A stretch of 64,000 nt of DNA from Erysipelotrichaceae bacterium. Lineage in GTDB: Bacteria; Bacillota_I; Bacilli_A; Erysipelotrichales; Erysipelotrichaceae. Location of the stretch: contig JAFYHQ010000029.1 in the NCBI GenBank assembly GCA_017539105.1, positions 62,001-126,000 of the forward strand. The letters are read 5' to 3'. The notes under the pieces are model-generated. The model did no database searches, had not been told where the DNA came from, and saw only the letters and a program-made list of their open reading frames with translations. Shown piece by piece: positions 4,076 to 56,443 of the stretch. The position numbers were made by a program, and so were the translations under genes. Positions within the stretch are counted from its first letter, which is position 1, and every line of letters starts with the position of its first letter.

Positions 4076-4081
4076 TATAAT
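4076..4081 (+). promoter_or_regulatory. -10 box six bases upstream of divIC ATG
   Basis: A perfect TATAAT begins one base after the rqcP stop codon and is followed by AAGAGC and then the divIC ATG at 4088. No Shine-Dalgarno lies in the usual window. A TTGAGG at 4050-4055 is 20 bases upstream, which is a poor -35 spacing. The A of ATG is the predicted +1, so the transcript would be leaderless. Confidence 0.6.
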
Positions 4082-4087
4082 AAGAGC

Positions 4088-4375
4088 ATGAGCGTAAAAA
4101 AGAAAAAAGGAAATCTGGTATCCAAGCTTGTTTCGATTCTGCTGATCGTGATGGCGATCGTTGTTTTAAGCGGCGTACTGAAGAAGATCTATACGATGTT
4201 TTCTTTGCAGCAGCAAGCCAAAGTGGTGGAACAGGAACTGGAAGCGTTGCGGGATGAAAACGCGTCTCTGATCGCGACCAAGGAGAAGCTGGAAGATCCC
4301 GAATATATACAGACCTATGCCCGGGGAGAGTACATGTTTTCGAAGGGTGATGAGAAGGTCTTCTATCTTCCTTAA
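4088..4375 (+). CDS. divIC: septum formation initiator, DivIC/FtsB family
   Basis: DivIC is a bitopic division protein that forms the FtsL-DivIC-DivIB (FtsLBQ) complex controlling septal peptidoglycan synthesis. The 95-residue protein has a basic cytoplasmic N-terminus, one membrane segment (about residues 14-32), a short coiled coil (about 36-66, rich in Leu, Glu and Gln) and the conserved tail YARGEYMFSKGDEKVFYLP. Size, topology and the position after rqcP all agree with the family. The start has no Shine-Dalgarno but a TATAAT exactly six bases upstream, so it may also be read from a leaderless transcript besides mfd-rqcP read-through. Confidence 0.92.
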   Translation: MSVKKKKGNLVSKLVSILLIVMAIVVLSGVLKKIYTMFSLQQQAKVVEQELEALRDENASLIATKEKLEDPEYIQTYARGEYMFSKGDEKVFYLP

Positions 4376-4379
4376 AAAC

Positions 4380-4400
4380 GTCATCGATCGATGACTTTTT
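4380..4400 (+). terminator. intrinsic terminator after divIC
   Basis: The stem GTCATC/GATGAC closes a GATC loop and is followed by TTTTT. It sits five bases after the divIC stop and separates the pth-divIC group from the nudix gene. Confidence 0.8.
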
Positions 4401-4451
4401 AATATATTTAGGATTATTTGATTTTCAAGTGAATAATATTGTGAGGCAATC

Positions 4452-4979
4452 ATGGAAAAACAGGTGGAAAGAGAAACGATCTATGACGGAAAGGTCATAA
4501 GAGTCTATAAAGACGAAGTCGAACTGGATGATGGAAGCAGATCCGTAAGGGAGATCGTCCAGCACAATGGCGGGGTCTGTATCGCTTTGAAACATGGCAA
4601 TATCTACTACATGGTGAAGCAGTACCGTTATGCTTTGGAAAGAGACATGCTGGAATTTCCGGCAGGCAAGATCGAAAAAGGGGAAGATCCTTTGGAAGCG
4701 ATCTTGCGGGAAGTCGTTGAAGAAACGGGATACAAGGCAGAGAATCTGCGTGAAATGGGCTATGTGATCCCGACCTGTGGATACTGTACGGAGAAGATCT
4801 ATCTTTATTATGCCGAAGCGGGAGAAGAAGTCGGTCAGCACCTGGATAAGGATGAACGCATCGATCTGTATACCTATACTTTCAAGGAAATCAAAGAAAT
4901 GATTGCGAACGGCACGATCAACGACAGCAAGACGATCGCGCTGGCTTACAGGATAGAAATGGAAGGATTGGATGCTTAG
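4452..4979 (+). CDS. nudF: Nudix hydrolase, ADP-ribose pyrophosphatase type
   Basis: The protein (175 residues) probably hydrolyses ADP-ribose to AMP and ribose 5-phosphate. A complete Nudix box (G-x5-E-x7-REVVEETGY) spans about residues 72-94, and the N-terminal strand layout (YDGKVIRVYKDEVEL) together with YRYALERDMLEFPAGK matches ADP-ribose pyrophosphatases rather than MutT. A GTGAGG Shine-Dalgarno element precedes the ATG. It overlaps the next gene by eight bases, so the two are probably co-transcribed. Substrate is inferred from the family. Confidence 0.88.
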   Translation: MEKQVERETIYDGKVIRVYKDEVELDDGSRSVREIVQHNGGVCIALKHGNIYYMVKQYRYALERDMLEFPAGKIEKGEDPLEAILREVVEETGYKAENLREMGYVIPTCGYCTEKIYLYYAEAGEEVGQHLDKDERIDLYTYTFKEIKEMIANGTINDSKTIALAYRIEMEGLDA

Positions 4980-5760
4980 CTATCAGGACCTGGTCAACGG
5001 ACTGTTTGAGGATAATGAGAACGTGCCGGAAGATTATCTGAATTCTTTTTTCACGGCGGAACATTTCAAGGATTATCAGATCGATGAGCGGGCAGACAAG
5101 TCTCAGATCAAAGCGATCCGGACGATGTTTACTTCCAGGAAAGATCTCGATTCCCGTATCGATAGCGCCTTGAAGATCGACCCCTTCTGTCTGGAAGCGT
5201 TCTTTGCGTATTTCATCCTGACGGAAGACGTATTCGTGAATTACCGTTTCGAATCCTATTATGCGCAGGCGAATCATTATGCGGACCTGGATGCCTATCA
5301 GAAGATGTGCTATCTCTCGATCATGGATTACTATGTCGAATTTCTTCTGGATCTTCACAACATCACTTCAGCCATCAAGATACAGCGTCTGATCGTCCGT
5401 CTAAGCAAAACCGTGACTCCTGCCATGACAGACCGTCTGGCGCTGATGTACAGCCTCACGGAGAATGCCGAAGAATTCTACCGTCTCTATCTGGACCACG
5501 AGTTCCAGACCTACGATTACCTTCTCCTGCTGGCAACGCTGCTGAAACACGAAGACAAGCTCCGTGCCAGACAAGTCCTCATGGACATGCTGGAGAAGAT
5601 CGAATATGCCGACTATCTGGACCATCTCTGGGACCTGGATCTGCAGGATCCCGGACAGAAAGCCTTTTACGATGTCGTCGAAGACTGCTACGACGAGATC
5701 AGCGCCATCCCGGATTTCTTCATCTGGGTCAACACGATCAAAGAAAAGATCGAAGAGTGA
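4972..5760 (+). CDS. uncharacterised helical-repeat protein
   Basis: I do not recognise this 262-residue protein. It is acidic, rich in Leu, Tyr and Asp, has no signal peptide or membrane segment, and appears all-helical. Two-helix stretches in the middle (IDSALKIDPFCLEAFFAYFI; LTENAEEFYRLYLDHEF; LRARQVLMDMLEKIEYADYL) look like degenerate TPR-type repeats, so a scaffold or partner-binding role is possible. The start lies inside the nudix gene with a GGAAGG ribosome site, which suggests translational coupling. No catalytic motif is visible. Confidence 0.75.
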   Translation: MLSYQDLVNGLFEDNENVPEDYLNSFFTAEHFKDYQIDERADKSQIKAIRTMFTSRKDLDSRIDSALKIDPFCLEAFFAYFILTEDVFVNYRFESYYAQANHYADLDAYQKMCYLSIMDYYVEFLLDLHNITSAIKIQRLIVRLSKTVTPAMTDRLALMYSLTENAEEFYRLYLDHEFQTYDYLLLLATLLKHEDKLRARQVLMDMLEKIEYADYLDHLWDLDLQDPGQKAFYDVVEDCYDEISAIPDFFIWVNTIKEKIEE

Positions 5761-5766
5761 TATAAT
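5758..5766 (+). promoter_or_regulatory. extended -10 promoter six bases upstream of the 5773 start
   Basis: TGA-TATAAT is an extended -10 motif. Six bases (TAATAC) separate it from the ATG at 5773. No -35 box of quality is seen at 16-18 bases and no Shine-Dalgarno is present, so the predicted transcript starts at the ATG. Confidence 0.6.
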
Positions 5767-5772
5767 TAATAC

Positions 5773-6072
5773 ATGGCAAATATCGATATCAGCAGACTCA
5801 GCAATATCTATGATGAACTCGAAGACCTGAATGGGAGCGATGTATTGTTTGTGGACGAAGGATCCCAAAGCAGGTATGTGATCATGCCGATCGAGATTTT
5901 TGATCAGCTGGAAGAACTCATAGCCATGCTGAAAGAACCGGAATCGATGCCGGTCGTGAAATTCAGCGGGGAAGATATTGAACTGAGCTACGATGAATAT
6001 GAACGGATCAAGAACCAGATCATGGAAGCGGTCGAAAAGACCCTGATGCCGAAACCGGAGAAACTGAACTGA
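5773..6072 (+). CDS. small protein with weak Phd/YefM antitoxin resemblance
   Basis: This 99-residue acidic protein is not confidently recognised. Residues 22-52 (DVLFVDEGSQSRYVIMPIEI followed by FDQLEELIAML) resemble the strand-helix portion of Phd/YefM antitoxins, where a strand reading KYVLMSIEEYE precedes a helix. No toxin gene is adjacent: tmk follows with a one-base overlap. The C-terminal half (GEDIELSYDEYERIKNQIMEAVEKTL) is helical. It could be an orphan antitoxin-like regulator or simply a conserved small protein of this lineage. Its start is leaderless-type. Confidence 0.6.
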   Translation: MANIDISRLSNIYDELEDLNGSDVLFVDEGSQSRYVIMPIEIFDQLEELIAMLKEPESMPVVKFSGEDIELSYDEYERIKNQIMEAVEKTLMPKPEKLN

Positions 6073-6710
6073 TGAAGGGTTTGTTTATAACATTTGAGGG
6101 ACCGGATGGTTCCGGGAAAACGACGGTAACGAATCGGATCTGCGATCTTCTGGCAGAAAAGGGTTACGATGTCATCCATACCAGGGAACCCGGAGGGATC
6201 GTGATCGCTGAACAGATCCGCAATGTCATCCTGGATCCCAAGAATACAGCCATGGATCCCAAGACTGAAGCGCTGCTGTATGCGGCATCGAGGCGCCAGC
6301 ACCTTGTCGAAAAAGTGCTTCCTGCGATGAAAGAAGGCAAGATCGTCATCTGCGAGCGTTTTCTTGATTCCTCGCTGGCTTACCAGGGTTTCGGAAGACA
6401 GCTTGGTTTCGATGAAGTATTGGGCATCAACCTGTTTGCGACAGACAATGTCTATCCCGATCTTACCATCTACCTGGATGTCGATGAAGAAGTCGGCTTA
6501 AGCCGGCTGAAAGACCGCGAAAACAAGGACCGTCTCGATCAGGAATCCATCGATTTCCATCATCGGGTCAGCGAAGGATATCGCGCCGTACTGGAACGCT
6601 TCAAAGACCGTATCCGCATCGTGGATGCCTCCAAGCCATTGGATGAAGTCGTGAATGCCAGCCTGAATGAGGTACTGAAACTTGTCGATCAAAGAAAGAC
6701 TGAGGGATAG
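6072..6710 (+). CDS. tmk: thymidylate kinase
   Basis: dTMP kinase phosphorylates dTMP to dTDP in the DNA precursor pathway. The 212-residue protein has the P-loop GPDGSGKTT (residues 10-18), the substrate motif ERFLDSSLAYQG (about 95-106) and a LID region with basic residues (RLKDRENKDRLDQE). GGAG six bases before the ATG serves as ribosome site. It overlaps the preceding gene by one base and holB by 29 bases, in the tmk-holB-ricT-rsmI cluster typical of Bacillota. Here the c-di-AMP receptor gene darA is not inside this cluster but at 24.9 kb. Confidence 0.96.
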   Translation: MKGLFITFEGPDGSGKTTVTNRICDLLAEKGYDVIHTREPGGIVIAEQIRNVILDPKNTAMDPKTEALLYAASRRQHLVEKVLPAMKEGKIVICERFLDSSLAYQGFGRQLGFDEVLGINLFATDNVYPDLTIYLDVDEEVGLSRLKDRENKDRLDQESIDFHHRVSEGYRAVLERFKDRIRIVDASKPLDEVVNASLNEVLKLVDQRKTEG

Positions 6711-7653
6711 CGAACCTGTCGCCTATACCTGTCTGCAGAATGCATTAAGAGAACAGAAAGTAGCGCACAGCTACTTGTTTTCAGGTGAATACAATCCATT
6801 GAAGATCGAAACAGCCTATCTTCTTGCCCAGTCCATCATCGAAGGGAAGAACGATTTCGCCTGCGAGACCTGTCCGACATGCGTACGGATCCGAAACAAC
6901 GAATATTACGACATCATCTACATCGATGGCTATCAGAAGACGATTAAGAAGGAAGATGCTTCCTGGATCCTGGATGAATTCTCCAAGACTGCGCTGGAAG
7001 CCGCAGGCAAGAAGGTCTATATCCTCGCCAACATCAACAACGCTTCCACAAAGGTCCTGAACATGATCCTGAAATTCATGGAAGAACCATCCAACGACAA
7101 TACCTTCGGCATCTTCATCACAGACAGGAAAGAAGACCTGCTTCCGACGATCATCTCCCGCTGTCAGGACATCCCGTTCCTTACAAGAGATTTCTCTTTC
7201 CTGATCGAAGATTATCAGAAGGCAGGATTCGACTATGTGGATGCCTATCTCTTGTCGGATATCCGGCACAGCTTCGATCCGGATTTCGATCTGAATGATC
7301 CCTATTATCTCAATGCCAAAGAATACGTCTATCAGACGATAGAGAATCTGGACAATAAGAACTACATCCCCGTGCTGTTCTATAAAGAGTTCTACACGGC
7401 ATTCAAAGACCGCGACGACTTCAGGAAATGTACAGACCACTATCTGGCAATCATGATCAAGATGCTGGAAGACTGCCTGGAGAAGAAAGAAATCAGCGAT
7501 GAAGAATATATGCGTCATCTGGATCTGCTGCGTGCCCATGATCCGGTGAAACTGCTGGATATCTTCGAACGTGCTGCGGACAAATGCGAAGTCAACGCGG
7601 AACGCAGGCTATTGTTTGACGCGATCAGTCATGAAATAATATCATATATTTGA
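6682..7653 (+). CDS. holB: DNA polymerase III delta' subunit
   Basis: HolB is the delta' subunit of the clamp loader that opens the sliding clamp. The 323-residue protein has the AAA+ delta' layout: HSYLFSGEY near the N-terminus, a zinc-module-like CETCPTC (about residues 58-64), KKVYILANINNASTKVLNMI and KFMEEPS (sensor region). The P-loop is degenerate, as expected for delta'. One of the usual four zinc cysteines seems absent: the segment reads LLAQSI where an earlier Cys is often found. The start is TTG at 6682 with GAGGT upstream, inside tmk. Confidence 0.9.
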   Translation: MSIKERLRDSEPVAYTCLQNALREQKVAHSYLFSGEYNPLKIETAYLLAQSIIEGKNDFACETCPTCVRIRNNEYYDIIYIDGYQKTIKKEDASWILDEFSKTALEAAGKKVYILANINNASTKVLNMILKFMEEPSNDNTFGIFITDRKEDLLPTIISRCQDIPFLTRDFSFLIEDYQKAGFDYVDAYLLSDIRHSFDPDFDLNDPYYLNAKEYVYQTIENLDNKNYIPVLFYKEFYTAFKDRDDFRKCTDHYLAIMIKMLEDCLEKKEISDEEYMRHLDLLRAHDPVKLLDIFERAADKCEVNAERRLLFDAISHEIISYI

Positions 7654-7662
7654 AGGTGAACT

Positions 7663-8517
7663 ATGGAAGAAACTACGAAATATATATCGGTTCGTTTTGA
7701 AACGACCAATAAGACTTATACATTCTCGACCGATGATCCGACGATCAGAAATAACGACGCGGTCGTGGTAGAGACCCAGAGAGGCCTGGAATATGCCAAG
7801 GTCGTCTCGGATCCTTTTGATAAACCGAATGTCGGAATGGAAATCAAGCCGATCATCCGCAAAGCCGATGAGAATGACGAGAGACAGTTTGAACGCAACA
7901 AGAAGGATGCGGCCAAAGCCAAAGAGATCTGTCAGAAAGAATCCGATGCCTTGGATCTGCAGATGAATGTCATTTCGGCAGAATACACCCTGGACCGGCA
8001 GAAGATCACATTCATCTATCTGGCAGATGACCGGGTGGATTTCAGAGAATTGCTGAAAGTCCTGGCATCGATTTTCCATTGCCGTATCGACTTAAGACAA
8101 GTCGGGACCCGTGACAAGGCCAAAATGGTTTCCGGGATCGGCGTCTGCGGAAGGGAACTGTGCTGTGCCCGTTTCATCGGCGATTTTGACCGTATTTCCA
8201 TCAATATGGCGAAGAATCAGCTGCTGGCTCTGAATATACAGAAGCTTTCCGGACAGTGCGGAAACCTGATGTGCTGCCTGAAATATGAAGACGACGCCTA
8301 CAAGAAACTGAGAAAAGACCTGCCGAAACTCAACTCCCAGGTCGAATTCGAAAAAGAGAAATACCGTATCACTTCGATGAACGTGATCAATAAGACCTGC
8401 AAACTGGAGAATGCCGAGCATGCGATTTTCATTACATTGGATGAACTGATCGCGAAAGGCAAGTATACAAAACAGGTAAGCAAAGAGGAAAAGGAAGAAA
8501 GTGTCGCTGAAGAATAA
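7663..8517 (+). CDS. ricT: RicT (YaaT), PSP1-domain regulator of RNA processing
   Basis: RicT belongs to the Y-complex (RicA-RicF-RicT), an Fe-S protein complex that stimulates RNase Y cleavage of mRNAs in Bacillus. The 284-residue protein carries a PSP1 domain with the cysteine clusters CGRELCC (about residue 162) and CGQ-less second cluster SGQCGNLMCCLKYE (about 200-213), which bind the cluster in the family. The C-terminus is an acidic tail. AAGGTG precedes the ATG. It lies between holB and rsmI as in Bacillus. RicA and RicF are not encoded in this window. Confidence 0.92.
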   Translation: MEETTKYISVRFETTNKTYTFSTDDPTIRNNDAVVVETQRGLEYAKVVSDPFDKPNVGMEIKPIIRKADENDERQFERNKKDAAKAKEICQKESDALDLQMNVISAEYTLDRQKITFIYLADDRVDFRELLKVLASIFHCRIDLRQVGTRDKAKMVSGIGVCGRELCCARFIGDFDRISINMAKNQLLALNIQKLSGQCGNLMCCLKYEDDAYKKLRKDLPKLNSQVEFEKEKYRITSMNVINKTCKLENAEHAIFITLDELIAKGKYTKQVSKEEKEESVAEE

Positions 8518-9340: not shown

Positions 9341-9355
9341 TAAATGAACCTGAAG

Positions 9356-9377
9356 AAAGCCTGTAACAGGGCTTTTT
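9356..9377 (+). terminator. intrinsic terminator after rsmI
   Basis: AAAGCC and GGCTTT form a stem around the loop TGTAACAG and run into TTTTT. It ends the tmk-rsmI group. Confidence 0.65.
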
Positions 9378-9387
9378 CAAAAAAGGT

Positions 9388-9416: not shown

Positions 9417-9449
9417 AAACATAATATTTCCGGAAAGGAGGAGTAAAAC

Positions 9450-9812: not shown

Positions 9813-9838
9813 TTTTTAGACAATAATATTAAATATAA

Positions 9839-15680: not shown

Positions 15681-17510
15681 ATGGAATACAAAAAAATGAT
15701 AAATGTAGCCGTAATTGCGCATGTTGACGCAGGAAAATCGACTCTTGTCGATGCTTTTCTGGCCCAGTCGCATGTGTTCGGGGAACACGAAGAGATCGTT
15801 TCCCAGGTCATGGATTCCAACGATCTGGAGCGTGAAAGGGGCATTACGATCTATTCCAAGAACTGTTCCATCAACTACAAGGACTACAAAATAAACATTG
15901 TCGATACGCCGGGTCATGCGGATTTTTCCAGTGAAGTGGAGCGTATCATCAAGACCGTGGATACCGTCATCTTATTGGTAGATTCTTCGGAGGGTCCGAT
16001 GCCGCAGACGCGTTTCGTTTTGAAGAAATCGCTGGAAGCGGGTTTATGTCCGATCCTTCTCATCAACAAGATCGATAAGAAAGATGCCAGGATCAACGAA
16101 GTCATCGACGAGGTCTATGATCTGTTCCTGGATCTGAGCGCCAATGATGACCAGCTGGATTTCCCGATCCTGTACGGCATCGCCAGAGAAGGGATCGTAC
16201 GATACGATCCGAAGGATACCAACGAGAATATCGATCCGCTGTTTGAGACGATCGTGAATCATGTGAAAGCCTATCCGAACCGGATGGATGAACCGCTGCA
16301 GATGCAGGTCAGCGCATTGGCTTACGACGACTATATCGGACGTATCGGAATCGGACGTGTGTATGCAGGCGTGATTAAGCAGAACGTAATGGTTTCCGTC
16401 TGCAACAACAATGGCAAGAAAGAGAACCGAAAGATTGCGAATCTGTACAACTATCAGGGACTCAAGAGAGTTCCGATTACGGAAGCGCAATGCGGAGATA
16501 TCGTTCTCTTAAGCGGTATCGAGAATATCGAAATCGGCGATACGATCGGTCCGGAAAATGTCTTCGATCCTATGCCGCAGATCGAGATCGAAGAACCTAC
16601 TTTAAGCATGAATTTCATGGTCAACACTTCACCGTTCCAAGGCAAATCAGGCAAGTATGTGACCAGCCGCAATATCAAGGAACGTCTGGAGAAGGAACTG
16701 GAGGTCAATGTCGGACTGAAGGTGGAAGCGACCGATACGACGGATACCTTCAAGGTTTCAGGCAGAGGCGAGCTGCATCTTTCCATTCTTCTGGAAAATA
16801 TGAGAAGAGAAGGCTATGAAGTCGCAGTCTCCCGTCCGGAAGTCATTTTCAAGACCATCGATGGCAGGAAATACGAACCGATCGAGGAAGTGATCTGTTC
16901 CGTTCCGAATGAATATTCGGGTTCCGTCATAAACAAGCTGAATCTCAGGAAAGGCCAGATGATCGATATCCAGGATGAGGGATCTTATACGAAGGTCATC
17001 TATCATGTGCCGACCAGAGGGCTTTTGGGATACCGCAGCGAGTTCATCAATGATACCAAAGGAGAAGGCGTCATGGTGCGCAAATTCATCGCTTATGAGC
17101 CTTTTGTGGGCGAAGTGCCACAGCGAAACAATGGCGTACTGGTTTCCATGGCATCTGGCAAGGCAATGACTTATGCCTTATGGAACCTGCAGGAAAGAGG
17201 ACAGCTCTTTGTCACTCCGCAGACCGAGATCTACGAAGGCATGATTATCGGCGTCTGCCCGAAACCGCAGGATATCGAAGTCAATCCTACCGTCAACAAG
17301 AAGATGACAGCCATCCGTTCGACCGGAGCCGACGAAGCGATGAAACTGACGCCGGCAAGGATCTTCTCCCTGGAAGAAGCATTGGAATTCATCAACGACG
17401 ACGAACTGGTCGAAATCACGCCTGACAGCATCCGTCTGAGGAAACGCTATCTGACCAACCTGGATCGTCGCAGACATATGCGTGAAGTCAACAAGATGGC
17501 TTCAGAATAG
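15681..17510 (+). CDS. typA: translational GTPase TypA/BipA
   Basis: TypA is a ribosome-binding GTPase related to EF-G and involved in ribosome assembly and stress growth. The 609-residue length fits. GTPase motifs: G1 AHVDAGKST (about 9-17), G2/switch ERERGITIYSKN, G3 DTPGHADF, G4 NKID. EF-G-like domains II, III and V and the TypA C-terminal domain follow. G1 reads HVDAGKST instead of the usual BipA HVDHGKTT, a variant I associate with a Clostridia-type TypA subfamily. I start it at the ATG at 15681; a TTG at 15675 is unlikely. It is followed after two bases by trhP1. Confidence 0.92.
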   Translation: MEYKKMINVAVIAHVDAGKSTLVDAFLAQSHVFGEHEEIVSQVMDSNDLERERGITIYSKNCSINYKDYKINIVDTPGHADFSSEVERIIKTVDTVILLVDSSEGPMPQTRFVLKKSLEAGLCPILLINKIDKKDARINEVIDEVYDLFLDLSANDDQLDFPILYGIAREGIVRYDPKDTNENIDPLFETIVNHVKAYPNRMDEPLQMQVSALAYDDYIGRIGIGRVYAGVIKQNVMVSVCNNNGKKENRKIANLYNYQGLKRVPITEAQCGDIVLLSGIENIEIGDTIGPENVFDPMPQIEIEEPTLSMNFMVNTSPFQGKSGKYVTSRNIKERLEKELEVNVGLKVEATDTTDTFKVSGRGELHLSILLENMRREGYEVAVSRPEVIFKTIDGRKYEPIEEVICSVPNEYSGSVINKLNLRKGQMIDIQDEGSYTKVIYHVPTRGLLGYRSEFINDTKGEGVMVRKFIAYEPFVGEVPQRNNGVLVSMASGKAMTYALWNLQERGQLFVTPQTEIYEGMIIGVCPKPQDIEVNPTVNKKMTAIRSTGADEAMKLTPARIFSLEEALEFINDDELVEITPDSIRLRKRYLTNLDRRRHMREVNKMASE

Positions 17511-20994: not shown

Positions 20995-21250
20995 CACTGA
21001 AGTTTTTTTCATATTCGACGACAGGAATCTCTTTGATTGCATAATCGTCGATGCGGATCCAGTGATCCTGGCTGAAGGTTCCTTTGAAGAACGCATCCAC
21101 GTCTTCTCCCTGGACCTCGACTTCGACATCGCCATTGTCCAGATTCCGGGCAAAGCCTGTCACATTCAGCTGATCTGCCAGCATCATCAGTTTCCACCGG
21201 AATCCGACACCCTGGACCCTTCCTTTATAAACGATATAATAACGTTTCAT
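20984..21250 (-). CDS. acyP: acylphosphatase
   Basis: Acylphosphatase hydrolyses carboxyl-phosphate bonds such as acetyl phosphate. The 88-residue protein has the signature [11 protein letters not shown] (catalytic Arg) and [16 protein letters not shown] (catalytic Asn). I start it at the ATG at 21250 (MKRYYIVY), which matches the family; the open frame extends further upstream without sense. No Shine-Dalgarno is present, but TACAAT lies exactly six bases upstream of the ATG. Its 3' end overlaps the convergent SpoU gene. Confidence 0.92.
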
Positions 21251-21256
21251 AATCTC

Positions 21257-21262
21257 ATTGTA
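21257..21262 (-). promoter_or_regulatory. -10 box six bases upstream of acyP ATG
   Basis: TACAAT on the minus strand, then GAGATT, then ATG at 21250. No Shine-Dalgarno and no clear -35. A leaderless start is predicted. Confidence 0.55.
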
Positions 21263-21270
21263 ATATAGAA

Positions 21271-21301
21271 CAACAAAAAAAGAACCTCTAGGAGGTTCTT
21301 T
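21271..21301 (-). terminator. terminator of the flavodiiron gene
   Basis: On the minus strand AAAGAACCTC, loop CTA and GAGGTTCTTT form a 10-bp stem followed by TTTTTGTTG. The flavodiiron stop codon overlaps its start. Confidence 0.88.
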
Positions 21302-25206: not shown

Positions 25207-25281
25207 ATCCCCACCTCCTAATAAATACATTCTATCATCATATTGTGTGTTTTTGGTGATTATTTTATCAGGTATCTTTAT

Positions 25282-33572: not shown

Positions 33573-33590
33573 TTCATTGTTTACAATGAA
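33573..33590. promoter_or_regulatory. 18-base palindrome over the CBS-gene promoter
   Basis: TTCATTGT, two bases and ACAATGAA form a perfect 8-2-8 inverted repeat. It covers the -10 box (33582-33587) and ends three bases before the ATG. No T-run follows, so it is more like an operator than a terminator. Confidence 0.5.
33582..33587 (+). promoter_or_regulatory. -10 box six bases upstream of the CBS-gene ATG
   Basis: TACAAT, then GAAAGT, then ATG at 33594. No Shine-Dalgarno and no clear -35. Leaderless start predicted. Confidence 0.55.
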
Positions 33591-33593: not shown

Positions 33594-34004
33594 ATGGAAA
33601 AGACAAATGTGCTGCTATTGTTGACGCCAAAAAAAGAAGTTGCATATTTAGATGAAAAAATGAACGCCCGACAGGCCATGGAGAAGATGAGAGCCCATGG
33701 CTATCGGATCATACCCCTGATTTCCAAACATGGCGAATATCTGGGAACCATCTCGGAAGGAGATATCCTGTGGCATATCGTCAATGAGAAAGAATTCTCT
33801 TTGGAGAAACTCGAAGAGATCAAGGTCAGGACGCTGATACGTAACGACTATGTCACTCCGGTCAAAGTGGATGCGCATATCGATGAACTGGTGAATGCGA
33901 TCGTGGATCACAACTTCGTGCCGGTCGTCGATGACCGCGGAGTGTTCATGGGGATCGTCACAAGAAGCAAGGTTCTTCAGGAACTGTTAAAGAGTTTAAG
34001 GTGA
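33594..34004 (+). CDS. two-CBS-domain protein
   Basis: The 136-residue protein is a tandem pair of CBS motifs (a Bateman module), which bind adenosine nucleotides. The first covers about residues 1-65 (NARQAMEKMRAHGYRIIPLI, EYLGTISEGDILWHIV), the second about 75-135 (VDAHIDELVNAIVDHNFVPV, GVFMGIVTRSKVLQELL). Length and organisation recall DarB/CbpB, the c-di-AMP-binding CBS protein of Bacillus, and the window also encodes DarA; this is only a resemblance. It has its own leaderless-type promoter with an overlapping palindrome and its own terminator. Confidence 0.85.
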   Translation: MEKTNVLLLLTPKKEVAYLDEKMNARQAMEKMRAHGYRIIPLISKHGEYLGTISEGDILWHIVNEKEFSLEKLEEIKVRTLIRNDYVTPVKVDAHIDELVNAIVDHNFVPVVDDRGVFMGIVTRSKVLQELLKSLR

Positions 34005-34070: not shown

Positions 34071-34076
34071 TATAAT
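34071..34076 (+). promoter_or_regulatory. -10 box six bases upstream of the 34083 ATG
   Basis: TATAAT, then GGAACT, then ATG at 34083. No -35 of quality and no Shine-Dalgarno at proper spacing. Leaderless start predicted. Confidence 0.6.
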
Positions 34077-34082: not shown

Positions 34083-35084
34083 ATGAATGATAAAGAACGT
34101 TTTCCGCCTCTGTTTAAGTTTATTTTCGGTGCAGGCGCTGTTTTGTTTGGATTGCTGCTGATACTGTTTATCCTGACTTCGGCTATGACCGGTATCAGCA
34201 TGTCGCTTCAGGGGATCAAGGATCTGTTTTCGACGCTGTTTGTGATATCGATCTATATCCTGGCTGCTTTGGTGCTGTTTGGTTTCATCATGATGGCGAT
34301 CACGATGAAAAAGAATCCTGCGGCAGCCAGCAGCATGGTCGTGAGAGACAATTATCTCAAGTATGAATATATCGACAAGGATGGGAAAAAGAAAAAGAGA
34401 ACGTTCTCTTTGGTTAATATCAACAAATATCTGGAAACGCGCGGACAGATGAAACTGATCGACGGTCTTGTCTTAAGCAAGGATGGCCATGACAGCAAGG
34501 CCAGTATCCGTAATCTCATGGTCTCTACGGAAGAGAAGAAACAGTCTTTGGCAACTGTCTATAATGAAGATCCTGCGGAATATCAGCGTATCGCAATGTT
34601 TCTGGACCATATTTCCACGCATGACGAGATCGATCTGGATTTCCATCTGGATACGTATATTTTCAGAGAGAATATGGCAGAGGAAGGAAAGAAACTGCAG
34701 TCTTCGCTGCGCAGCCGGCTGAAGGGGATCGAAGACGAAGAGATCCGGAACCGTATCATTGAAACGATACAGGAACTGCAGAAAGCGGAAGGGCTGCTGG
34801 ATGATTCCGGATATGACGACAAATTGCGCAAGCTGTATACAACATATGTACCGATGCTGATCGGGATCTTGGAAACATATGGAGGATTGGATCGCAACGA
34901 TCAAGATCTGAAACGGAAAGAAAAAGCGAGAATGGAACTAATGGAGACGTTCGATCTGATCCTTGCCGCTTTTGCTTCTTTGAATGATAAGAAAGAGGAA
35001 GAAGGCTTCGATCGTCTGGAAGCGGCTTCCGATTCGCTGGAACAGATACTGCAGACAGGACATGAGGAGGTAAGAAATGGCTGA
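34083..35084 (+). CDS. membrane protein with XpaC-like C-terminal region
   Basis: The 333-residue protein has two N-terminal membrane helices (about 9-35 and 50-75) and a cytoplasmic helical C-terminal part. The segment SGYDDKLRKLYTTYVPMLIG with ILETYGGLDRND resembles the XpaC family (5-bromo-4-chloroindolyl phosphate hydrolysis protein), often linked to TelA-like genes; no telA is present here. I start it at the ATG at 34083 rather than an upstream TTG at 34056. Its stop overlaps the MuiA-like gene by eight bases, so the two probably work together. Confidence 0.65.
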   Translation: MNDKERFPPLFKFIFGAGAVLFGLLLILFILTSAMTGISMSLQGIKDLFSTLFVISIYILAALVLFGFIMMAITMKKNPAAASSMVVRDNYLKYEYIDKDGKKKKRTFSLVNINKYLETRGQMKLIDGLVLSKDGHDSKASIRNLMVSTEEKKQSLATVYNEDPAEYQRIAMFLDHISTHDEIDLDFHLDTYIFRENMAEEGKKLQSSLRSRLKGIEDEEIRNRIIETIQELQKAEGLLDDSGYDDKLRKLYTTYVPMLIGILETYGGLDRNDQDLKRKEKARMELMETFDLILAAFASLNDKKEEEGFDRLEAASDSLEQILQTGHEEVRNG

Positions 35085-36736: not shown

Positions 36737-36742
36737 TATAAT
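36737..36742 (+). promoter_or_regulatory. -10 box six bases upstream of the 36749 ATG
   Basis: TATAAT, then AGAGTT, then ATG at 36749. It lies just after a terminator, so an independent promoter is expected here. No Shine-Dalgarno. Leaderless start predicted. Confidence 0.65.
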
Positions 36743-36748: not shown

Positions 36749-38560
36749 ATGTTTGATAGAAAACGCTTCAAGAGCCAAGCAAGGCAGATGCTGAAAAAGC
36801 ACTATACGCTTCTGGTGATCGCCTGTCTGATCGCGGCAATCGCAGGCAGCAGTTACAGTTATTCGGTTTCTGCGAGTACCTATACTTCTTCCATCAAGGA
36901 AGCGGCGGACGTTGTCGATGCCGGTACGACATATATCGATGTCCCTTCGATCGGAGACGCTCTTTATAAACTGTTCGGTCTCGATCTGAGCGGAACGTTC
37001 CAATACGATGAAGAGGGGAAACTGACGCATATCGGTGATCTGGAATTAGGCAGACGCAAGGGAGTCTATTCTTCTCTGCTGAATCGCATCAGCAATGCCC
37101 GTTTCTTTTCACTGGCATTGCAGACGGTCCATTCTCTGATCACGACGAAATCGCTTGCTTTGGATTTCAATATCCTCATCGCTTCGATGATCGTCATGGG
37201 GATCACGGCTTTCGTGAAGCATTTCTATAGCATCGCTTATCGCAGGATCTTTATGGAATCCTATCAGTACGACGTTACGAAATCATCCAGATTCCTATTC
37301 CTGTTTCGGACCGGAAAATGGCTCAAAGCCTGTACGACGATCTTTGTTGTGAATGTGTATCAGTTCTTATGGAATTTCACGATCATCGGAGGGATCATCG
37401 CCCGATACGATTATATGTTTATTCCGTATATCGTTGCAGAGAATCCAGGAATCGATCGGCGCGAAGCGATCCGGCTGTCAAAACGCATGGTTTACGGCCA
37501 TCGTTTCGATTTGTTCAAGACACAGCTTTCGTTCCTGCCATGGCTGGTCCTGGGACGTTTCACGTTTGGCATCAGCGATATCCTGTTTGCGAACCCATAT
37601 CTGGAAGCGACGATCTGCCAGTATTATTTTGCGTTACGCAAGATGGCAAAGATTCAGGGCGTTTCTTATGTGAATAATCTGAATGATACCTATCTTGCCG
37701 AGAAAGCAAGCTATGCCTATATCGAAGAGAAATATGCCGATGTCGTCGAAATGATGACCAACGATCTGGATGTGAGAGATCTTGAACACGAAGGCCTGCG
37801 CGGTTTTGTGGAGGATCATCTGGGAATCATTTACAAAAACGATGAGGATCAGGATCTCTATAACGCGGCGATCGAAGAGACGGATGTCATCGATGACTAT
37901 CATCAGATCCTGAATCTCAGACAGTATCCGGATCGGCTGAGTCCATATGTTTCAGAGAATCGCAAGGAAAGCGATCAGATCCATTATCTGCGTCGTTATT
38001 CTTTGACTTCCATTATTCTTATGTTTTTCTCTTTCAGCTTCGTAGGATGGCTCTGGGAGGTCCTGCTGCATATCATCAATGACGGACGTTTCGTGAACCG
38101 GGGCGTCATGCACGGACCTTGGCTGCCGATCTATGGAAGCGGAGCGGTACTGATCCTGGTGATGTTGTTCCGATATCGCAGAAAACCGGTCGTGGAAGCG
38201 ACACTGATGATCCTGTTATGCGGCGTCGTCGAATATCTCGGATCGTGGTATCTGGAAGTGACCAAGGGTCTGAAATGGTGGGATTATTCCGGTTATTTTA
38301 TCAATCTCCACGGCAGGATCTGCGCGGAAGGGCTGACGGTCTTCATGATCGGCGGACTGGCTGCCGTCTATGTCCTGGCGCCGCTGCTGGATAACAGGCT
38401 GAAAAAGATCAGCCGGCCTCTCAAAGCCATGATCTGTCTTCTGTTGCTGCTGGCCTTTGGCTATGACATGTATTATACCCATGATCATCCGAATACCGGC
38501 AAAGGGATCACGGATTATGATGAAGTATCTTATCGCACCGATCAGAAAGGCCGTCAATGA
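36749..38560 (+). CDS. membrane fusion: DUF975-like plus CmpB-like permease domain
   Basis: The 603-residue protein joins two membrane families. The N-terminal half (about 1-310) is DUF975-like with several helices and the segment RREAIRLSKRMVYGHRFDLF. A cytoplasmic stretch (about 320-410) leads to a C-terminal five-helix domain (about 420-580) of the putative ABC permease CmpB type (FVGWLWEVLLHI, RGVMHGPWLPIYGSGA, WWDYSGYFINLHGRICAEG). Each half is usually a separate gene. No ATP-binding partner is nearby, so transport is not supported. The stop overlaps the phosphoesterase start. Confidence 0.72.
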   Translation: MFDRKRFKSQARQMLKKHYTLLVIACLIAAIAGSSYSYSVSASTYTSSIKEAADVVDAGTTYIDVPSIGDALYKLFGLDLSGTFQYDEEGKLTHIGDLELGRRKGVYSSLLNRISNARFFSLALQTVHSLITTKSLALDFNILIASMIVMGITAFVKHFYSIAYRRIFMESYQYDVTKSSRFLFLFRTGKWLKACTTIFVVNVYQFLWNFTIIGGIIARYDYMFIPYIVAENPGIDRREAIRLSKRMVYGHRFDLFKTQLSFLPWLVLGRFTFGISDILFANPYLEATICQYYFALRKMAKIQGVSYVNNLNDTYLAEKASYAYIEEKYADVVEMMTNDLDVRDLEHEGLRGFVEDHLGIIYKNDEDQDLYNAAIEETDVIDDYHQILNLRQYPDRLSPYVSENRKESDQIHYLRRYSLTSIILMFFSFSFVGWLWEVLLHIINDGRFVNRGVMHGPWLPIYGSGAVLILVMLFRYRRKPVVEATLMILLCGVVEYLGSWYLEVTKGLKWWDYSGYFINLHGRICAEGLTVFMIGGLAAVYVLAPLLDNRLKKISRPLKAMICLLLLLAFGYDMYYTHDHPNTGKGITDYDEVSYRTDQKGRQ

Positions 38561-44583: not shown

Positions 44584-44589
44584 ATTATA
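44584..44589 (-). promoter_or_regulatory. -10 box six bases upstream of the sirtuin ATG
   Basis: On the minus strand TATAAT, then AAAGAT, then ATG at 44577. No Shine-Dalgarno. Leaderless start predicted. Confidence 0.65.
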
Positions 44590-51704: not shown

Positions 51705-51714
51705 ACAATTTATT

Positions 51715-51720
51715 ATTATA
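51715..51720 (-). promoter_or_regulatory. -10 box of ponA
   Basis: TATAAT on the minus strand, then ten bases, then the ponA ATG at 51704. The leader would be about three to four bases, so near-leaderless. Confidence 0.5.
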
Positions 51721-51738
51721 CTATATCAGTTTAATAAA

Positions 51739-51747
51739 TGATAATAT
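51739..51747 (+). promoter_or_regulatory. extended -10 box six bases upstream of pepP
   Basis: TGA-TAATAT, then AAAGAC, then ATG at 51754. TAATAT matches four of six consensus positions, so this is the weakest of the leaderless-type sites. No Shine-Dalgarno. Confidence 0.45.
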
Positions 51748-51753
51748 AAAGAC

Positions 51754-53511
51754 ATGATAAGAGAAAGATTAAACGCATTAAAAACGCTGATGAGACAGCA
51801 GAATATCGATGTCTACTATCTGAATACTTCTGACTATCATCTATCTGAATACGTACCGGAATACTTCAAAACGGTAGCCTGGTTTTCCGGTTTTACCGGT
51901 TCTCTGGCGACTTTGCTGGTGACACTGAATGATACTTATATCTTTGTGGATGGACGTTACTATCTGCAAGCCGATCAACAATGTCTGCCATATGGGATCA
52001 AGGTCGTGAAACTGGGGACAGAGGGGGCTCTGGAGCCTTTGGCCTTCCTGAAAGAAAACTATCCCGGAGCCATCGTCGGACTCGATGGCAAGCGCACAAG
52101 CATCGCTTTTGCGAAAGAACTGCTGAATCAGGGCAATCAGATCCGTAGCATCGACATCTATTCGTCACTGATTCAAAACAGGACTCCATTGTCTCACAGC
52201 AAGATCTTTGAAATGGATAACAGCTATGCCGGTCTTTCCCGCATAAGGAAAGTGAAACTGATCACGCATTGCTTAAGAGATATGGTCCATATCGTAGACA
52301 ATCTGGAATCGATCGCCTATCTTCTGAATCTTCGAGGCAATGACATCGCTTATACTCCGGTCTTTCTTTCATATATGGTCCTGCAGGATGGAGATGTCTA
52401 TCTGTTCTGCGATCTGGATCGTTTCAATGCGGATCTTTTGGATAAGCTTTATGCCGATGGGATCATTATCCGTCCGTACGATTCCTACTATGATTTCTTG
52501 AAAACCATCGAGAAACGCAAGATCGTTCTGGATGAACGCAAAGTCAATTATGAGAGCTATCTTGCCTTGTCTCAGGGAAACAATCTATTCTATGACCGCC
52601 GTTCCATCATTGAAGACATGAAAGCGATCAAGAACCCGATCGAACAGGATAATATCCGCAGGGCCCATATCTATGATGGGATCGCGGTACTGCGTTTTAT
52701 GATGTGGCTGGATTCGATCGATAAGAGAACGGTCAATGAATGCGACTGTTCCAGAAAGATCAACAGTCTGCGTATGGAGGTCGGAGCGAAGGATCTGAGC
52801 TTCGCATCCATCGTAGCATACAATGAAAACGCGGCAATCGTTCATTACTTCCCGGAAGAAGACAAATGCGCGAGACTGGACAACCGGGGGATCCTGCTGT
52901 TTGATACGGGAGGCCAGTATCTGGAAGGAACCACCGATATCACGAGAACGGTTGCTTTGGGCGAGGTCGATGAGGAAGTCAGAAGCTATTTCACCCTGGT
53001 TCTCAAATCGATGCTAGCATTGAGCGAACTGAAGTTTCTGTCCGGATTGTGCGGAAAACAGATCGATATCGTAGCCCGTCAGGAGTTGTGGGCATATAGC
53101 GTGGATTACCGTCATGGCACTGGACATGGGGTAGGGAACTATCTTGCGGTCCATGAAGGTCCGCCAAACATCCGTTACGGTTCGACAGAAACGAAAAACG
53201 AAGAAGTCGAACTGAAACCGGGCATGGTGTTCTCCGATGAACCGGGTGTCTATTTCGCGAACCGTTTCGGGATCCGCTGTGAGAATCTGTTGCTGTGCAA
53301 GAAAGTGGAAGAAAATGAATACGGACGTTTCTTAGGCTTTGAAACGCTGACGATGGTTCCGTTCGATCTGAAGCTGATCGATCGAGATCTCTTGGATGAA
53401 AAGAGTATCCGTGCTTTAAACAGTTACCATCAGAAAGTCTATGATACGCTTTCGCCTTTCATTACGGAAGAAGAAAGAGCTTATCTTAAGGAGAAAACGC
53501 AGGCGATATGA
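51754..53511 (+). CDS. pepP: Xaa-Pro aminopeptidase (M24B)
   Basis: The 585-residue enzyme removes N-terminal residues preceding proline. It has the three-domain M24B layout: two creatinase-like N-terminal domains (about 1-300) and the pita-bread catalytic domain (about 310-585). Metal-binding residues are visible in LLFDTGGQYLEGTTDITRT (two Asp), HGTGHGVGNYLAVHEGP (His), SDEPGVY (Glu) and RCENL (Glu). No signal peptide, so cytoplasmic. It overlaps exoA by four bases. Confidence 0.95.
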   Translation: MIRERLNALKTLMRQQNIDVYYLNTSDYHLSEYVPEYFKTVAWFSGFTGSLATLLVTLNDTYIFVDGRYYLQADQQCLPYGIKVVKLGTEGALEPLAFLKENYPGAIVGLDGKRTSIAFAKELLNQGNQIRSIDIYSSLIQNRTPLSHSKIFEMDNSYAGLSRIRKVKLITHCLRDMVHIVDNLESIAYLLNLRGNDIAYTPVFLSYMVLQDGDVYLFCDLDRFNADLLDKLYADGIIIRPYDSYYDFLKTIEKRKIVLDERKVNYESYLALSQGNNLFYDRRSIIEDMKAIKNPIEQDNIRRAHIYDGIAVLRFMMWLDSIDKRTVNECDCSRKINSLRMEVGAKDLSFASIVAYNENAAIVHYFPEEDKCARLDNRGILLFDTGGQYLEGTTDITRTVALGEVDEEVRSYFTLVLKSMLALSELKFLSGLCGKQIDIVARQELWAYSVDYRHGTGHGVGNYLAVHEGPPNIRYGSTETKNEEVELKPGMVFSDEPGVYFANRFGIRCENLLLCKKVEENEYGRFLGFETLTMVPFDLKLIDRDLLDEKSIRALNSYHQKVYDTLSPFITEEERAYLKEKTQAI

Positions 53512-54257
53512 AACTGATCAGCTGGAACGTGAATGGCTTACGGGCTTGCATGAAAAAAGGATTTGCGGATTTCTTTCTGAAGGAAGATGCCGATATTTTT
53601 GCGATACAGGAAACCAAGATGCAGGAAGATCAGCTGGAACTGGGAATGCGCTTCGAAGGATATCATCTGTATATGAACAGCGCGGAAAAGAAGGGTTATT
53701 CCGGTACTCTGGTCTACAGCAAACAGGAACCTTTGAGTGTCGCTTATGATATCGAAGACGAAGGCTGCGATGAGGGAAGAGTCATCACTCTGGAATATCC
53801 GGATTTCTATTTCGTCACGGCCTATGTGCCAAACTCCAAAGACGGCTTGCTGCGTCTGGATTTTAGGATGATCTGGGAAGATGCCTTGCGCAGGCATCTG
53901 ATGAAACTGGATCAGAAAAAACCGGTCATCTATACAGGGGATCTCAATGTGGCGCATGAAGAGATCGATCTGAAGAATCCCGATGAGAATCATTATTCGG
54001 CAGGATTTTCGGATGAGGAACGCGGCAAGTTCACAGAATTGTTAGCTGCAGGATTCAGCGACAGTTTCCGTGTCCTTTATCCTGAGAAAGAGAAATATAC
54101 CTGGTGGTCTTATAGGACCAGAGCAAGGGAACGCAATGTCGGTTGGCGTATCGATTATTTCGTGGTGTCCGATCGGTTCATGAAAGAAGTCAGGGACAGC
54201 CTGATTTATGATGAGATCGAAGGCAGCGATCATTGTCCGATCGGCTTGCTGATATAG
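53508..54257 (+). CDS. exoA: exodeoxyribonuclease III (AP endonuclease)
   Basis: Exonuclease III cleaves DNA at abasic sites in base-excision repair. The 249-residue protein contains LISWNVNGLRACMKKG (metal Asn), FAIQETKMQ (Glu), YTGDLNVAHEEIDL (Asp and Asn), TWWSYRTRARERNVGWRIDY and the closing EGSDHCPIGL with catalytic Asp-His. Length is normal. No ribosome site is clear; translation is probably coupled to pepP through the overlapping stop and start. Confidence 0.97.
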   Translation: MKLISWNVNGLRACMKKGFADFFLKEDADIFAIQETKMQEDQLELGMRFEGYHLYMNSAEKKGYSGTLVYSKQEPLSVAYDIEDEGCDEGRVITLEYPDFYFVTAYVPNSKDGLLRLDFRMIWEDALRRHLMKLDQKKPVIYTGDLNVAHEEIDLKNPDENHYSAGFSDEERGKFTELLAAGFSDSFRVLYPEKEKYTWWSYRTRARERNVGWRIDYFVVSDRFMKEVRDSLIYDEIEGSDHCPIGLLI

Positions 54258-54266
54258 GAGGGTAAG

Positions 54267-55613
54267 ATGGAAATCAGACAGTTTATCGAAGAGAACATTG
54301 ATGCAATGAAGCAGGATCTGAAGAAACTGGTTTCTTATAATTCGGTCTATAGCGAGGATGAGAAACCGTTCGGCAAGATGAATCGTGCCGTTCTTGATTG
54401 CGCTTTAGGGCTGATGGAAGAAAAAGGTCTCAGAACGGAGAACGTGGATTATTACTGCGGTTTCGGCGAGACCGGAGAAGGAGAGAAACTGATCGGCATT
54501 CTGGCGCATCTGGATGTCGTTCCGGCAGGGGAAGGATGGAAACATGATCCGTTCGATATGACGGAGGAAGACGGTTACCTGTATGGCAGAGGCGTTTCCG
54601 ATGACAAGGGTGCAGCTATCGCTTCGATGTATGCCTTGAAGTACCTGATCCAGGAAAACTATCCGTTCCAAAAGAGAGTACGTCTGATCCTTGGCTGCAA
54701 CGAGGAGACAGGATCGCGATGCATCCGTCACTATGTCGAAAAGTACGGCCATATCGATTGCGGTTTCACGCCGGATGGAAACTTCCCCGGCATCTATGCA
54801 GAGAAGGGTATGGTTGCAGCAAAACTCGTCGGTCATGACAGCAGGATCATCGATATCAGAGGCGGTGAAGCATCCAATGTAGTCAACAAGAAGATCACTT
54901 GCAGTCTGCCTCTAGATCGTTTCGATGAAAATCTGTTCAAACAGTATCTGATGGACCACAAGCTTGCGTTCGATTATGCAAAAGGAGAAACCATCGATGT
55001 CACGGTCTATGGCGAAAGCGCACATGCCAGCATGCCTGACTTAGGCAAGAACGCGTTCAGCCATCTGATGGAAGCGCTGTACCATGCCGGTTTCGAAGAT
55101 ACGTTCGTAAGCTGGTTCCATAAATACTTCTCGCTGGAAGTCCATGGCGAGAAACTGGGCTATGAATCCCTGAAAGACGATATCTCCGATACTACCATCA
55201 ATTTCGGCATCATCGGCAAGCAGGACAATGACATCATCGTCAGCCTGGATATGCGTTTCCCGGTCAAGACGGACAGCGGAAAAGTCGTTGAACTGTTGAA
55301 CATCGGTGATGAACACAATGAACTGGTCATCATGAGCAGGACGGAACCGTTATACTTCGACATCGATTCACCGATGATCAAAGCGTTGAAGAAGGCTTAT
55401 GTCGATGTGACAGGGGACGACAAGACGCCCATGGAAGCGATCGGAGGAGGCACTTATGCGAAAGCCATTCACAACTGCATCGCTTTCGGCTGCGAATTCC
55501 AGGGAGAAAACAATCATATCCATGATCTCGATGAATGTCTCAATATCGATAATTTCAAGAAACAGGTCGAACTGTATGTTGCGGCGATCCGCAACTTAAA
55601 CGAGATCGGCTAG
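54267..55613 (+). CDS. pepV: M20 dipeptidase, PepV/Sapep type
   Basis: The 448-residue zinc dipeptidase hydrolyses Xaa-His and related dipeptides. Metal and catalytic residues appear in GILAHLDVVPAGEGW (His, Asp), GRGVSDDKGAAIASMYAL (Asp), GCNEETGSRC (Glu-Glu) and FTPDGNFPGIYAEKG (Asp). The lid domain insertion (about 185-330) and the final His (ENNHIHDLDE) are present. GGAGGG precedes the ATG. It completes a small peptide-salvage and repair group pepP-exoA-pepV. Confidence 0.93.
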   Translation: MEIRQFIEENIDAMKQDLKKLVSYNSVYSEDEKPFGKMNRAVLDCALGLMEEKGLRTENVDYYCGFGETGEGEKLIGILAHLDVVPAGEGWKHDPFDMTEEDGYLYGRGVSDDKGAAIASMYALKYLIQENYPFQKRVRLILGCNEETGSRCIRHYVEKYGHIDCGFTPDGNFPGIYAEKGMVAAKLVGHDSRIIDIRGGEASNVVNKKITCSLPLDRFDENLFKQYLMDHKLAFDYAKGETIDVTVYGESAHASMPDLGKNAFSHLMEALYHAGFEDTFVSWFHKYFSLEVHGEKLGYESLKDDISDTTINFGIIGKQDNDIIVSLDMRFPVKTDSGKVVELLNIGDEHNELVIMSRTEPLYFDIDSPMIKALKKAYVDVTGDDKTPMEAIGGGTYAKAIHNCIAFGCEFQGENNHIHDLDECLNIDNFKKQVELYVAAIRNLNEIG

Positions 55614-55615
55614 GA

Positions 55616-55624
55616 TGTTATAAT
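55616..55624 (+). promoter_or_regulatory. extended -10 box six bases upstream of the HAD gene
   Basis: TGT-TATAAT, then AGAAAT, then ATG at 55631. It begins three bases after the pepV stop. No Shine-Dalgarno. Leaderless start predicted. Confidence 0.65.
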
Positions 55625-55630
55625 AGAAAT

Positions 55631-56443
55631 ATGAAAAGAACGAAACTGGCACTGATCTACGACTTCGATAAGACGTTATCTCCGAGAGATATGCAAGAGT
55701 TTCATCTTTTAAGTACGCTGGGCTATGACGATCCCAATGCTTTCTGGGCGGAATGCGATGCGTTTGCGCGCAAGCATAACTGCGATGGCATTCTTTCTTA
55801 CATGTATCTGATGGTCATGAAAAATGACGGTCTCACCAGGGATCAGCTGATCGAAGAAGGAAAGTACATCGAACTGTACAAAGGAGTCAAGACCTGGTTT
55901 GAGCGGATCAACGAATATGGACGGAAACATCACATCACCGTCGAGCATTATGTCGTTTCTTCCGGTCTGACCGATATCATCATGGGTACGCCGATCGCGC
56001 GTGAATTCAAGAAGATCTATGCCTGTACCTATGTCTATGACAAAGACGGGAAAGTGAAATGGCCATCCAGAGTGGTCAACTATACGATGAAGACCCAGTA
56101 TCTTTTCAGGATCAACAAGGGTGTCCTGCAGGAAACCAATGATGCGGATCTGAACAATTCCACTCCGGAATCGGAGAAATACATTCCTTTGGAGAATATG
56201 ATCTATTTCGGAGATGGAAGCACGGATGTTCCGAGCATGAAGGTCGTGCAGCAGAATGGCGGGACCACGATCGCTGTGTTCGGGGATGATTCCAAGCGCA
56301 GCAAGGCCGAGGAACTGTTTAAAGACAAGAGGGCCACGTTTGCGGTCAAGGCTGATTATTCCAAGGGTTCCAAGATCGAAAAGATCGTGCAATGCATCAT
56401 CGATTCTCTGGAAGCCAAAGCAAAATTAGATAACTATCAATGA
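55631..56443 (+). CDS. HAD-superfamily phosphatase
   Basis: The 270-residue protein has HAD motifs: YDFDKTLSPRD (nucleophile Asp and acid Asp), VVSSGLTDII (motif II Ser) and FGDGSTDVPSM (motif IV Asp pair), with a basic residue in NKGVLQ as motif III candidate. The helical cap inserted after motif I (about 20-100) resembles phosphoserine phosphatase-type C1 caps. The substrate is unknown. It overlaps the debranching-enzyme gene by four bases, so it may be co-transcribed with the glycogen operon. Confidence 0.85.
   Translation: MKRTKLALIYDFDKTLSPRDMQEFHLLSTLGYDDPNAFWAECDAFARKHNCDGILSYMYLMVMKNDGLTRDQLIEEGKYIELYKGVKTWFERINEYGRKHHITVEHYVVSSGLTDIIMGTPIAREFKKIYACTYVYDKDGKVKWPSRVVNYTMKTQYLFRINKGVLQETNDADLNNSTPESEKYIPLENMIYFGDGSTDVPSMKVVQQNGGTTIAVFGDDSKRSKAEELFKDKRATFAVKADYSKGSKIEKIVQCIIDSLEAKAKLDNYQ

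Follow-up and report, generated by a model that had tools for sequence, protein, structure and literature searches.

Results

We analysed a 64,000-nucleotide stretch of a draft Erysipelotrichaceae bacterium genome (GenBank assembly GCA_017539105.1, contig JAFYHQ010000029.1, positions 62,001 to 126,000), referred to here as the window, for a class of candidate leaderless genes, those whose promoters would place the transcription start on the start codon itself. Nine genes, on both strands, carry a TATAAT-like -10 box separated from the ATG by exactly six bases. These boxes had been proposed in a sequence-only reading of the window, and all nine lie at the positions and on the strands that it gave; its account of their sequences is equally accurate, with six perfect TATAAT, two TACAAT and one TAATAT, the last (at pepP) having two mismatches.

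The TATAAT box of divIC (4076 to 4081, plus strand; ATG at 4088; Pfam PF04977) adjoins the TAG stop codon of the preceding gene. At the gene that starts at 5773, whose product finds no match in Pfam or NCBIfam, the TATAAT box (5761 to 5766, plus) follows a TGA that serves both as a stop codon and as the TGn of an extended -10 element. The two TACAAT boxes belong to the acylphosphatase gene acyP (21257 to 21262, minus; PF00708) and to a CBS-domain gene beginning at 33594 (box at 33582 to 33587, plus), whose product resembles CbpB, a cyclic di-AMP (c-di-AMP) binding protein, scoring 92 bits with the NCBIfam CbpB model, under its cut-off of 125. TATAAT recurs before the gene at 34083 (34071 to 34076, plus), which encodes 333 residues of no recognized family; before the gene at 36749 (36737 to 36742, plus); and before the gene for a Sir2-family deacylase, or sirtuin (44584 to 44589, minus; PF02146). 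The TAATAT box of pepP, an aminopeptidase P-like gene (51742 to 51747, plus; PF00557), follows a TGA in extended -10 form, and the TATAAT box of a HAD-like gene (55619 to 55624, plus; weak HAD match below cut-off) follows TGT. TG precedes the box at just three of the nine (the 5773 gene, the HAD-like gene and pepP), fewer than the "several" of the sequence-only reading suggests. Three further genes, for which that reading supplied the names typA, ftsE and ponA, have gaps of 8, 9 and 10 bases, as it had described, with starts at 15681, 25320 and 51704 on the minus strand. The 36749 gene (36749 to 38557) encodes a single chain of 603 residues that matches both DUF975 and ABC_trans_CmpB.

Of the 59 genes called in the window, 6 have perfect TATAAT at spacing 6 from an in-frame ATG; the other 40 spacings between 0 and 40 yield 0 to 2 genes apiece. 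The count was extended to a larger sample of the same genome (an incomplete draft, 89% complete, in 48 contigs), consisting of the window and 20 further stretches, for 445,362 bases and 402 genes from a simple home-made codon-based caller, whose starts are to be taken as candidates. For every gene, each in-frame ATG candidate up to 20 codons beyond the called start was considered and spacings 0 to 40 were all handled alike, so the choice of start cannot favour spacing 6. Perfect TATAAT occurs at spacing 6 in 18 genes of this sample, against 0 to 7 at other spacings. When the box is allowed to be near-perfect (of form TANNNT and differing from TATAAT at no more than one base), 38 of the 402 genes have it at spacing 6, while the other 40 spacings average 7.0 (standard deviation 3.2, maximum 14). 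A -10 box at the distance that puts +1 on the start codon was likewise found in 56 of 500 genes from relatives, the other spacings between 0 and 30 reaching 15 at most; the relatives' set comprises 37 named relatives' loci from one homologous neighbourhood, with many repeats of divIC, the 5773 gene and mnmE, and its 56 hits are therefore not independent. Across the whole genome, TATAAT followed by six bases and ATG occurs 92 times, the reversed pattern 10 times, and spacings 9 to 13 average 28 each (140 over five spacings). The peak at six, for which other spacings and the reversed pattern served as controls rather than shuffled upstream regions, is sharp; the genome-wide absence of a peak, which the sequence-only reading had named as a refuting result, did not occur.

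That reading had put the chance of a given hexamer at one fixed position at 1 in 4096 per gene. The figure is too simple for AT-rich upstream DNA, yet the verdict that the boxes are no coincidence is upheld by the spacing and reversed-pattern controls. AT-rich upstream DNA and the fact that spacing 6 is in frame might together suggest an artefact of chance or coding frame, with TAT AAT NNN NNN ATG simply recurring as in-frame codons. The spacing controls refute this explanation, which we consider next to impossible: the in-frame spacings 9, 12 and 15 give 3, 8 and 5 genes, where spacing 6 gives 37, and another family of the same order (f2) shows an excess in none of the 24 genomes surveyed as described below, with a pooled ratio of 0.92.

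GTG starts show the box at spacing 6 in 4 genes of the own-genome sample, each other spacing between 3 and 15 giving 0 to 2, and in relatives in 1, against 0 to 2 elsewhere; leaderless GTG starts may occur, though rarely. Spacing 18 also shows an excess of perfect TATAAT, though a smaller one, in the own-genome sample (7 genes, most spacings giving 0 to 4). Boxes so placed would leave a leader barely long enough for a Shine-Dalgarno sequence.

The start context and translation signals of the spacing-6 genes set them apart from other genes. Bacterial RNA polymerase start sites usually have a pyrimidine at -1 and a purine at +1. A pyrimidine directly precedes the ATG in 34 of the 38 own-genome hits and 55 of the 56 relatives' hits, compared with 122 of 204 Shine-Dalgarno genes and 85 of 117 relatives' boxes at spacings 7 to 20. 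The absence of a Shine-Dalgarno sequence, also part of the sequence-only reading, is borne out, since one was found at 1 of the 38 spacing-6 genes (2 of 38 under a looser motif) but at 199 of 355 other genes (Fisher p 1e-11); in relatives the corresponding figures are 3 of 56 and 194 of 428. TG ahead of the box is raised, yet is found in a minority of sites, 6 of 38 in the own genome and 13 of 56 in relatives, over background rates of 0.055 and 0.065.

Distribution across lineages was surveyed in 397 of 402 genomes by setting the count of TATAAT-6-ATG against the average over spacings 9 to 13, at a cut-off of p<1e-4; all surveyed genomes outside the own order belong to the same class, and Lactobacillales are not among them. 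An excess was found in 50 of the 397. The own genus accounts for 34 (of 36 genomes, ratios 1.4 to 5.2) and the rest of the family for 6 of 26 (genera g23, g24, g28 and g30). Outside the family, f2 included, 10 of 335 genomes show an excess. Five belong to genus g72 of family f16 and are small, probably those of mycoplasmas to judge by their size; of the others, 4 are from g116 (family f8) and 1 from g77. In a quick Mfd protein tree, the own genus, g24, g27 and g30 together form a clade of 42 rows (Shimodaira-Hasegawa-like approximate likelihood ratio test support 100), in which the nine surveyed genomes have ratios of 1.6 to 4.6; within it, G267 of g30 forms a long branch, and g27, at p 4e-4, falls short of the cut-off. 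Just outside the clade, g20, g22 and g25 have ratios below 1, and g23 and g28 have ratios of 2.1 to 2.3. We read this pattern as one gain at the base of the clade, plus either an older origin with losses or separate gains nearby. Named rows of the clade include Erysipelotrichaceae metagenome-assembled genomes (many from ruminant gut), uncultured Solobacterium sp. records and Candidatus Colivicinus equi.

Sampled stretches from several of these genomes were counted gene by gene. Spacing 6 is the single highest of spacings 0 to 25 both in G267 (9 of 70 genes, at most 3 elsewhere) and in G257 plus G198 of g116, at 61% guanine plus cytosine (10 of 132, at most 3 elsewhere); G371 plus G395 of g72 have it in 3 of 18 genes, with at most 2 at any other spacing. 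Taking these stretches together with those from G149 (g23) and G156 (g24), a pyrimidine precedes the ATG in 31 of 33 spacing-6 genes. In G038 of family f2, spacing 6 occurs in 1 of 84 genes, with A before the ATG. The g116 peak is apparently an independent case. In G257 and G198 (loci L108 to L117), which represent a small-genome, GC-rich lineage of another family, 9 of the 10 spacing-6 genes have a pyrimidine before the ATG. The genome G393 lies far off all others, with the reversed pattern 219 times and the forward one 28 times, perhaps reflecting a repeat family.

Several of the genes in the window retain box and spacing in their homologs. divIC was located in 39 of 67 loci searched and has a spacing-6 box in 29 of the 39, two of them with GTG (L025, L054); at least five pairs of these loci share an identical Mfd and probably represent one genome seen twice. 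The box was found at spacing 6 in none of six divIC homologs from g20, g23, g25 and g26, outside the main clade, and it is also missing from the divIC of g30 (G267), inside it. For the 5773 gene, 14 of 19 homologous loci have the box at spacing 6, and one of the remaining five has AGGAGG instead. For pepP, a box with at most one mismatch stands at spacing 6 in 11 of 29 loci; 17 more, by eye and under a looser rule, carry TAATAT or TAAGAT there, each preceded by TG. Homologs of the CBS gene were located in two relatives only, both with spacing 6.

Sirtuin loci divide between spacing 6 (15 of 29) and spacing 8 (14 of 29), and loci of mnmE, a gene outside the window, do likewise (11 and 12 of 27). 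Among loci L156 to L174 (sirtuin) and L023 to L056 (mnmE) the box often lies 8 bases from the ATG, frequently with ATATG or GTATG where the start is expected, and typA in the window (ATG at 15681) has the GTATG form as well. From a spacing-8 box, transcription starting six bases on would leave two leader bases, as in AU-AUG or GU-AUG, and these sites lend some plausibility to the proposal that transcription begins one to three bases off the A, leaving very short leaders rather than none. In the own genome, however, one count gives 37 genes at spacing 6 and 7 at each of spacings 7 and 8, and the pyrimidine sits directly before the A of the ATG. We hold very short leaders to be a possible but doubtful description of the class.

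Proximity to upstream genes raises a different alternative, in which the boxes are internal or secondary promoters and translation proceeds mainly from read-through transcripts, coupled to the preceding gene. Sites within 30 bases of a codirectional upstream gene number 8 of 38 in the own genome and 33 of 56 in relatives, and both divIC and the 5773 gene start 12 bases past a stop codon. Coupling, however, requires no fixed distance from box to ATG, and the nearest upstream gene is not codirectional at 19 of the 38 own-genome sites. At acyP, a hairpin with a T-run, read by eye between the preceding gene and acyP (21250 to 21300, minus), ends about 24 bases before the ATG, leaving little room for a leader. 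Translation mainly by read-through is, in our judgment, unlikely.

A Pfam scan covered 34 of the 38 candidates plus pepP, and among the matches for these we saw no single functional theme. They include DivIC, acylphosphatase, Sir2, a MutS family member with an Smr domain, RNase HII-like and uracil-DNA glycosylase-like proteins, NAD-dependent DNA ligase, IPP transferase, Sua5/YrdC, CutC and SpoIIE. The window holds both a c-di-AMP receptor gene (PF06153; 24883 to 25230, minus) and the CbpB-like CBS gene at 33594.

Loss of ribosomal protein S1 (bS1) was considered as a cause of leaderless use. No multi-domain S1 exceeds the cut-off of model TIGR00717 (rpsA) in any of 32 genomes, with or without a spacing-6 peak; the cut-off is strict, and only 2 of 14 control genomes pass it. 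Matches in the 32 genomes are mostly to short frames of about 120 to 140 residues and long ones of about 700. Because genomes with and without leaderless genes alike fail the cut-off, S1 loss, judged in this way, does not discriminate between them.

Discussion

Fixed spacing, start-site-like context, lack of Shine-Dalgarno sequences, conservation at several genes and restriction by lineage are all observed by computation. A peak sharp at six and confined by lineage, a pyrimidine before the A and the exclusion of Shine-Dalgarno sequences support the leaderless interpretation. It is very probable, on this sequence evidence, that about 8% of the genes of this Erysipelotrichaceae genome (about 1 in 12) are leaderless, their messages beginning with the A of AUG, beside genes led by Shine-Dalgarno sequences. 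We infer where the 5' ends lie, which sigma factor is used and that translation begins at a 5'-terminal AUG. In the proposed mechanism, a sigma-A-type -10 element, sometimes in the extended TGn form, would be set to make the A of the ATG, six bases past the box, the first base that RNA polymerase transcribes, yielding a message that begins 5'-AUG; ribosomes carrying initiator tRNA would then begin at this terminal AUG without Shine-Dalgarno pairing, and the remaining genes would use ordinary starts, many with Shine-Dalgarno sequences. Translation of leaderless messages is reported to have a lower sensitivity to kasugamycin.

Several results weigh against this interpretation or limit its extent. 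Chance would account for about 6 of the 38 hits (spacings 3 to 12 other than 6 average 6.2), and the figure of 8% arises because subtracting these leaves about 32 of 402 genes. The 38 own-genome sites show no enrichment for a -35 element (spacers of 16 to 18 bases have a mean of 2.68 matches, control spacers 2.55 to 2.74), so that box strength alone must carry these promoters; in relatives the -35 is somewhat enriched, with at least 4 matches in 22 of 56 sites against 5 to 8 at controls. The spacing is weakly retained at mnmE, and at the 34083 gene it is found in just 5 of 20 homologous loci, of which those of low identity may be paralogs. In sampled stretches, G149 is weak (4 of 92 genes, against up to 3 at other spacings), and in G156 spacing 23 gives as many genes as spacing 6, 7 of 97 each. 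Finally, the apparent leaderless start at 25230 (minus), that of the c-di-AMP receptor gene, is probably a false one, because the Pfam match begins at residue 9, where an ATG eight codons downstream follows AGGAGG. This candidate fits the notion that the ATGs of the class are miscalled and that true starts lie downstream behind Shine-Dalgarno sequences. As an account of the class that notion is very improbable, since sirtuin homologs align from residue 1 in 35 of 36 genomes, the own genome included, and alignments of pepP homologs begin between residues 1 and 5 in the 30 loci given.

Mycoplasma pneumoniae and Mesoplasma florum probably belong to the same class, as defined by GTDB, as the genome analysed here. 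Leaderless genes in such organisms have been described before, and the comparisons that follow draw on excerpts of the papers cited. Of 953 bacterial genomes in Zheng et al. 2011 (PMC3160421), 207 were predicted to have leaderless genes. Firmicutes supply 56 of these, out of 209 (average 4.2%, up to 16.6%), concentrated in Lactobacillales and Mycoplasma; TAtAAT boxes are described, with a TG peak in some genomes, and the share reaches 36 to 46% of genes in Deinococcus-Thermus. GeneMarkS-2 predicted leaderless transcription in 21.6% of bacterial species (PMC9581028). In M. pneumoniae, which is without ribosomal protein S1 and has Shine-Dalgarno sequences in 8.1% of genes, 16% of messages are leaderless-like (5' untranslated region of at most 8 nucleotides), with translation efficiency like that of leadered ones (PMC10568206). 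Mapped starts of M. florum lie mostly 6 or 7 bases past the -10 box, some exactly on start codons (PMC7745072), and in Deinococcus a TANNNT box adjoining the open reading frame was shown experimentally to be the promoter -10, with spacing requirements relative to the frame (PMC12340547). With 56 Firmicutes genomes predicted and two mollicutes mapped in these sources, the rarity of leaderless genes in Bacillota, on which the sequence-only reading had remarked, is less than it stated.

The class described here appears the same as the leaderless genes with TA-like signals of PMC3160421: TAtAAT at a fixed short distance, no Shine-Dalgarno sequence and sometimes TG before the box. The excerpted text of that paper names no Erysipelotrichia; here single genes are traced through one clade, and the trait is not seen in another family of the order. 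The reports on M. pneumoniae and M. florum rest on mapped RNA, ours on DNA sequence; Shine-Dalgarno sequences are rare in M. pneumoniae and common here (199 of 355), and the spacing from box to start is like that of M. florum (mostly 6 or 7 there, 6 here). Deinococcus (PMC12340547 for the box, PMC3160421 for the gene share) differs in belonging to a distant phylum, in having TANNNT rather than TATAAT and in a far higher share of genes. A partial literature search found no paper linking leaderless genes to Erysipelotrichaceae or this group. Since the mechanism is known from earlier reports, the lineage, the gene share and the conservation at single genes are what is new.

The box is retained even in species where some of the DivIC, 5773, sirtuin and PepP proteins are only 50 to 60% identical. 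It is conceivable, though quite improbable on present comparisons, that these four genes keep a box with a zero or near-zero leader as members of a maintained regulon rather than through neutral drift. If they do, the cell could favour or disfavour the set as the state of its ribosomes or its levels of initiation factors change. A more practical possibility is that gene-start callers tuned to Shine-Dalgarno sequences could misplace some of these starts.

Leaderless initiation, known but unevenly spread in bacteria, appears from these comparisons to be shared here by species related to this gut bacterium, often at the same genes. Leaderless and Shine-Dalgarno starts would coexist in a sharply bounded lineage, with no leaderless signal seen in a neighbouring family of the same order, and the gain of leaderless initiation is therefore testable by comparison, in bacteria none of which, among the 32 genomes searched, has a protein over the full-length S1 cut-off.

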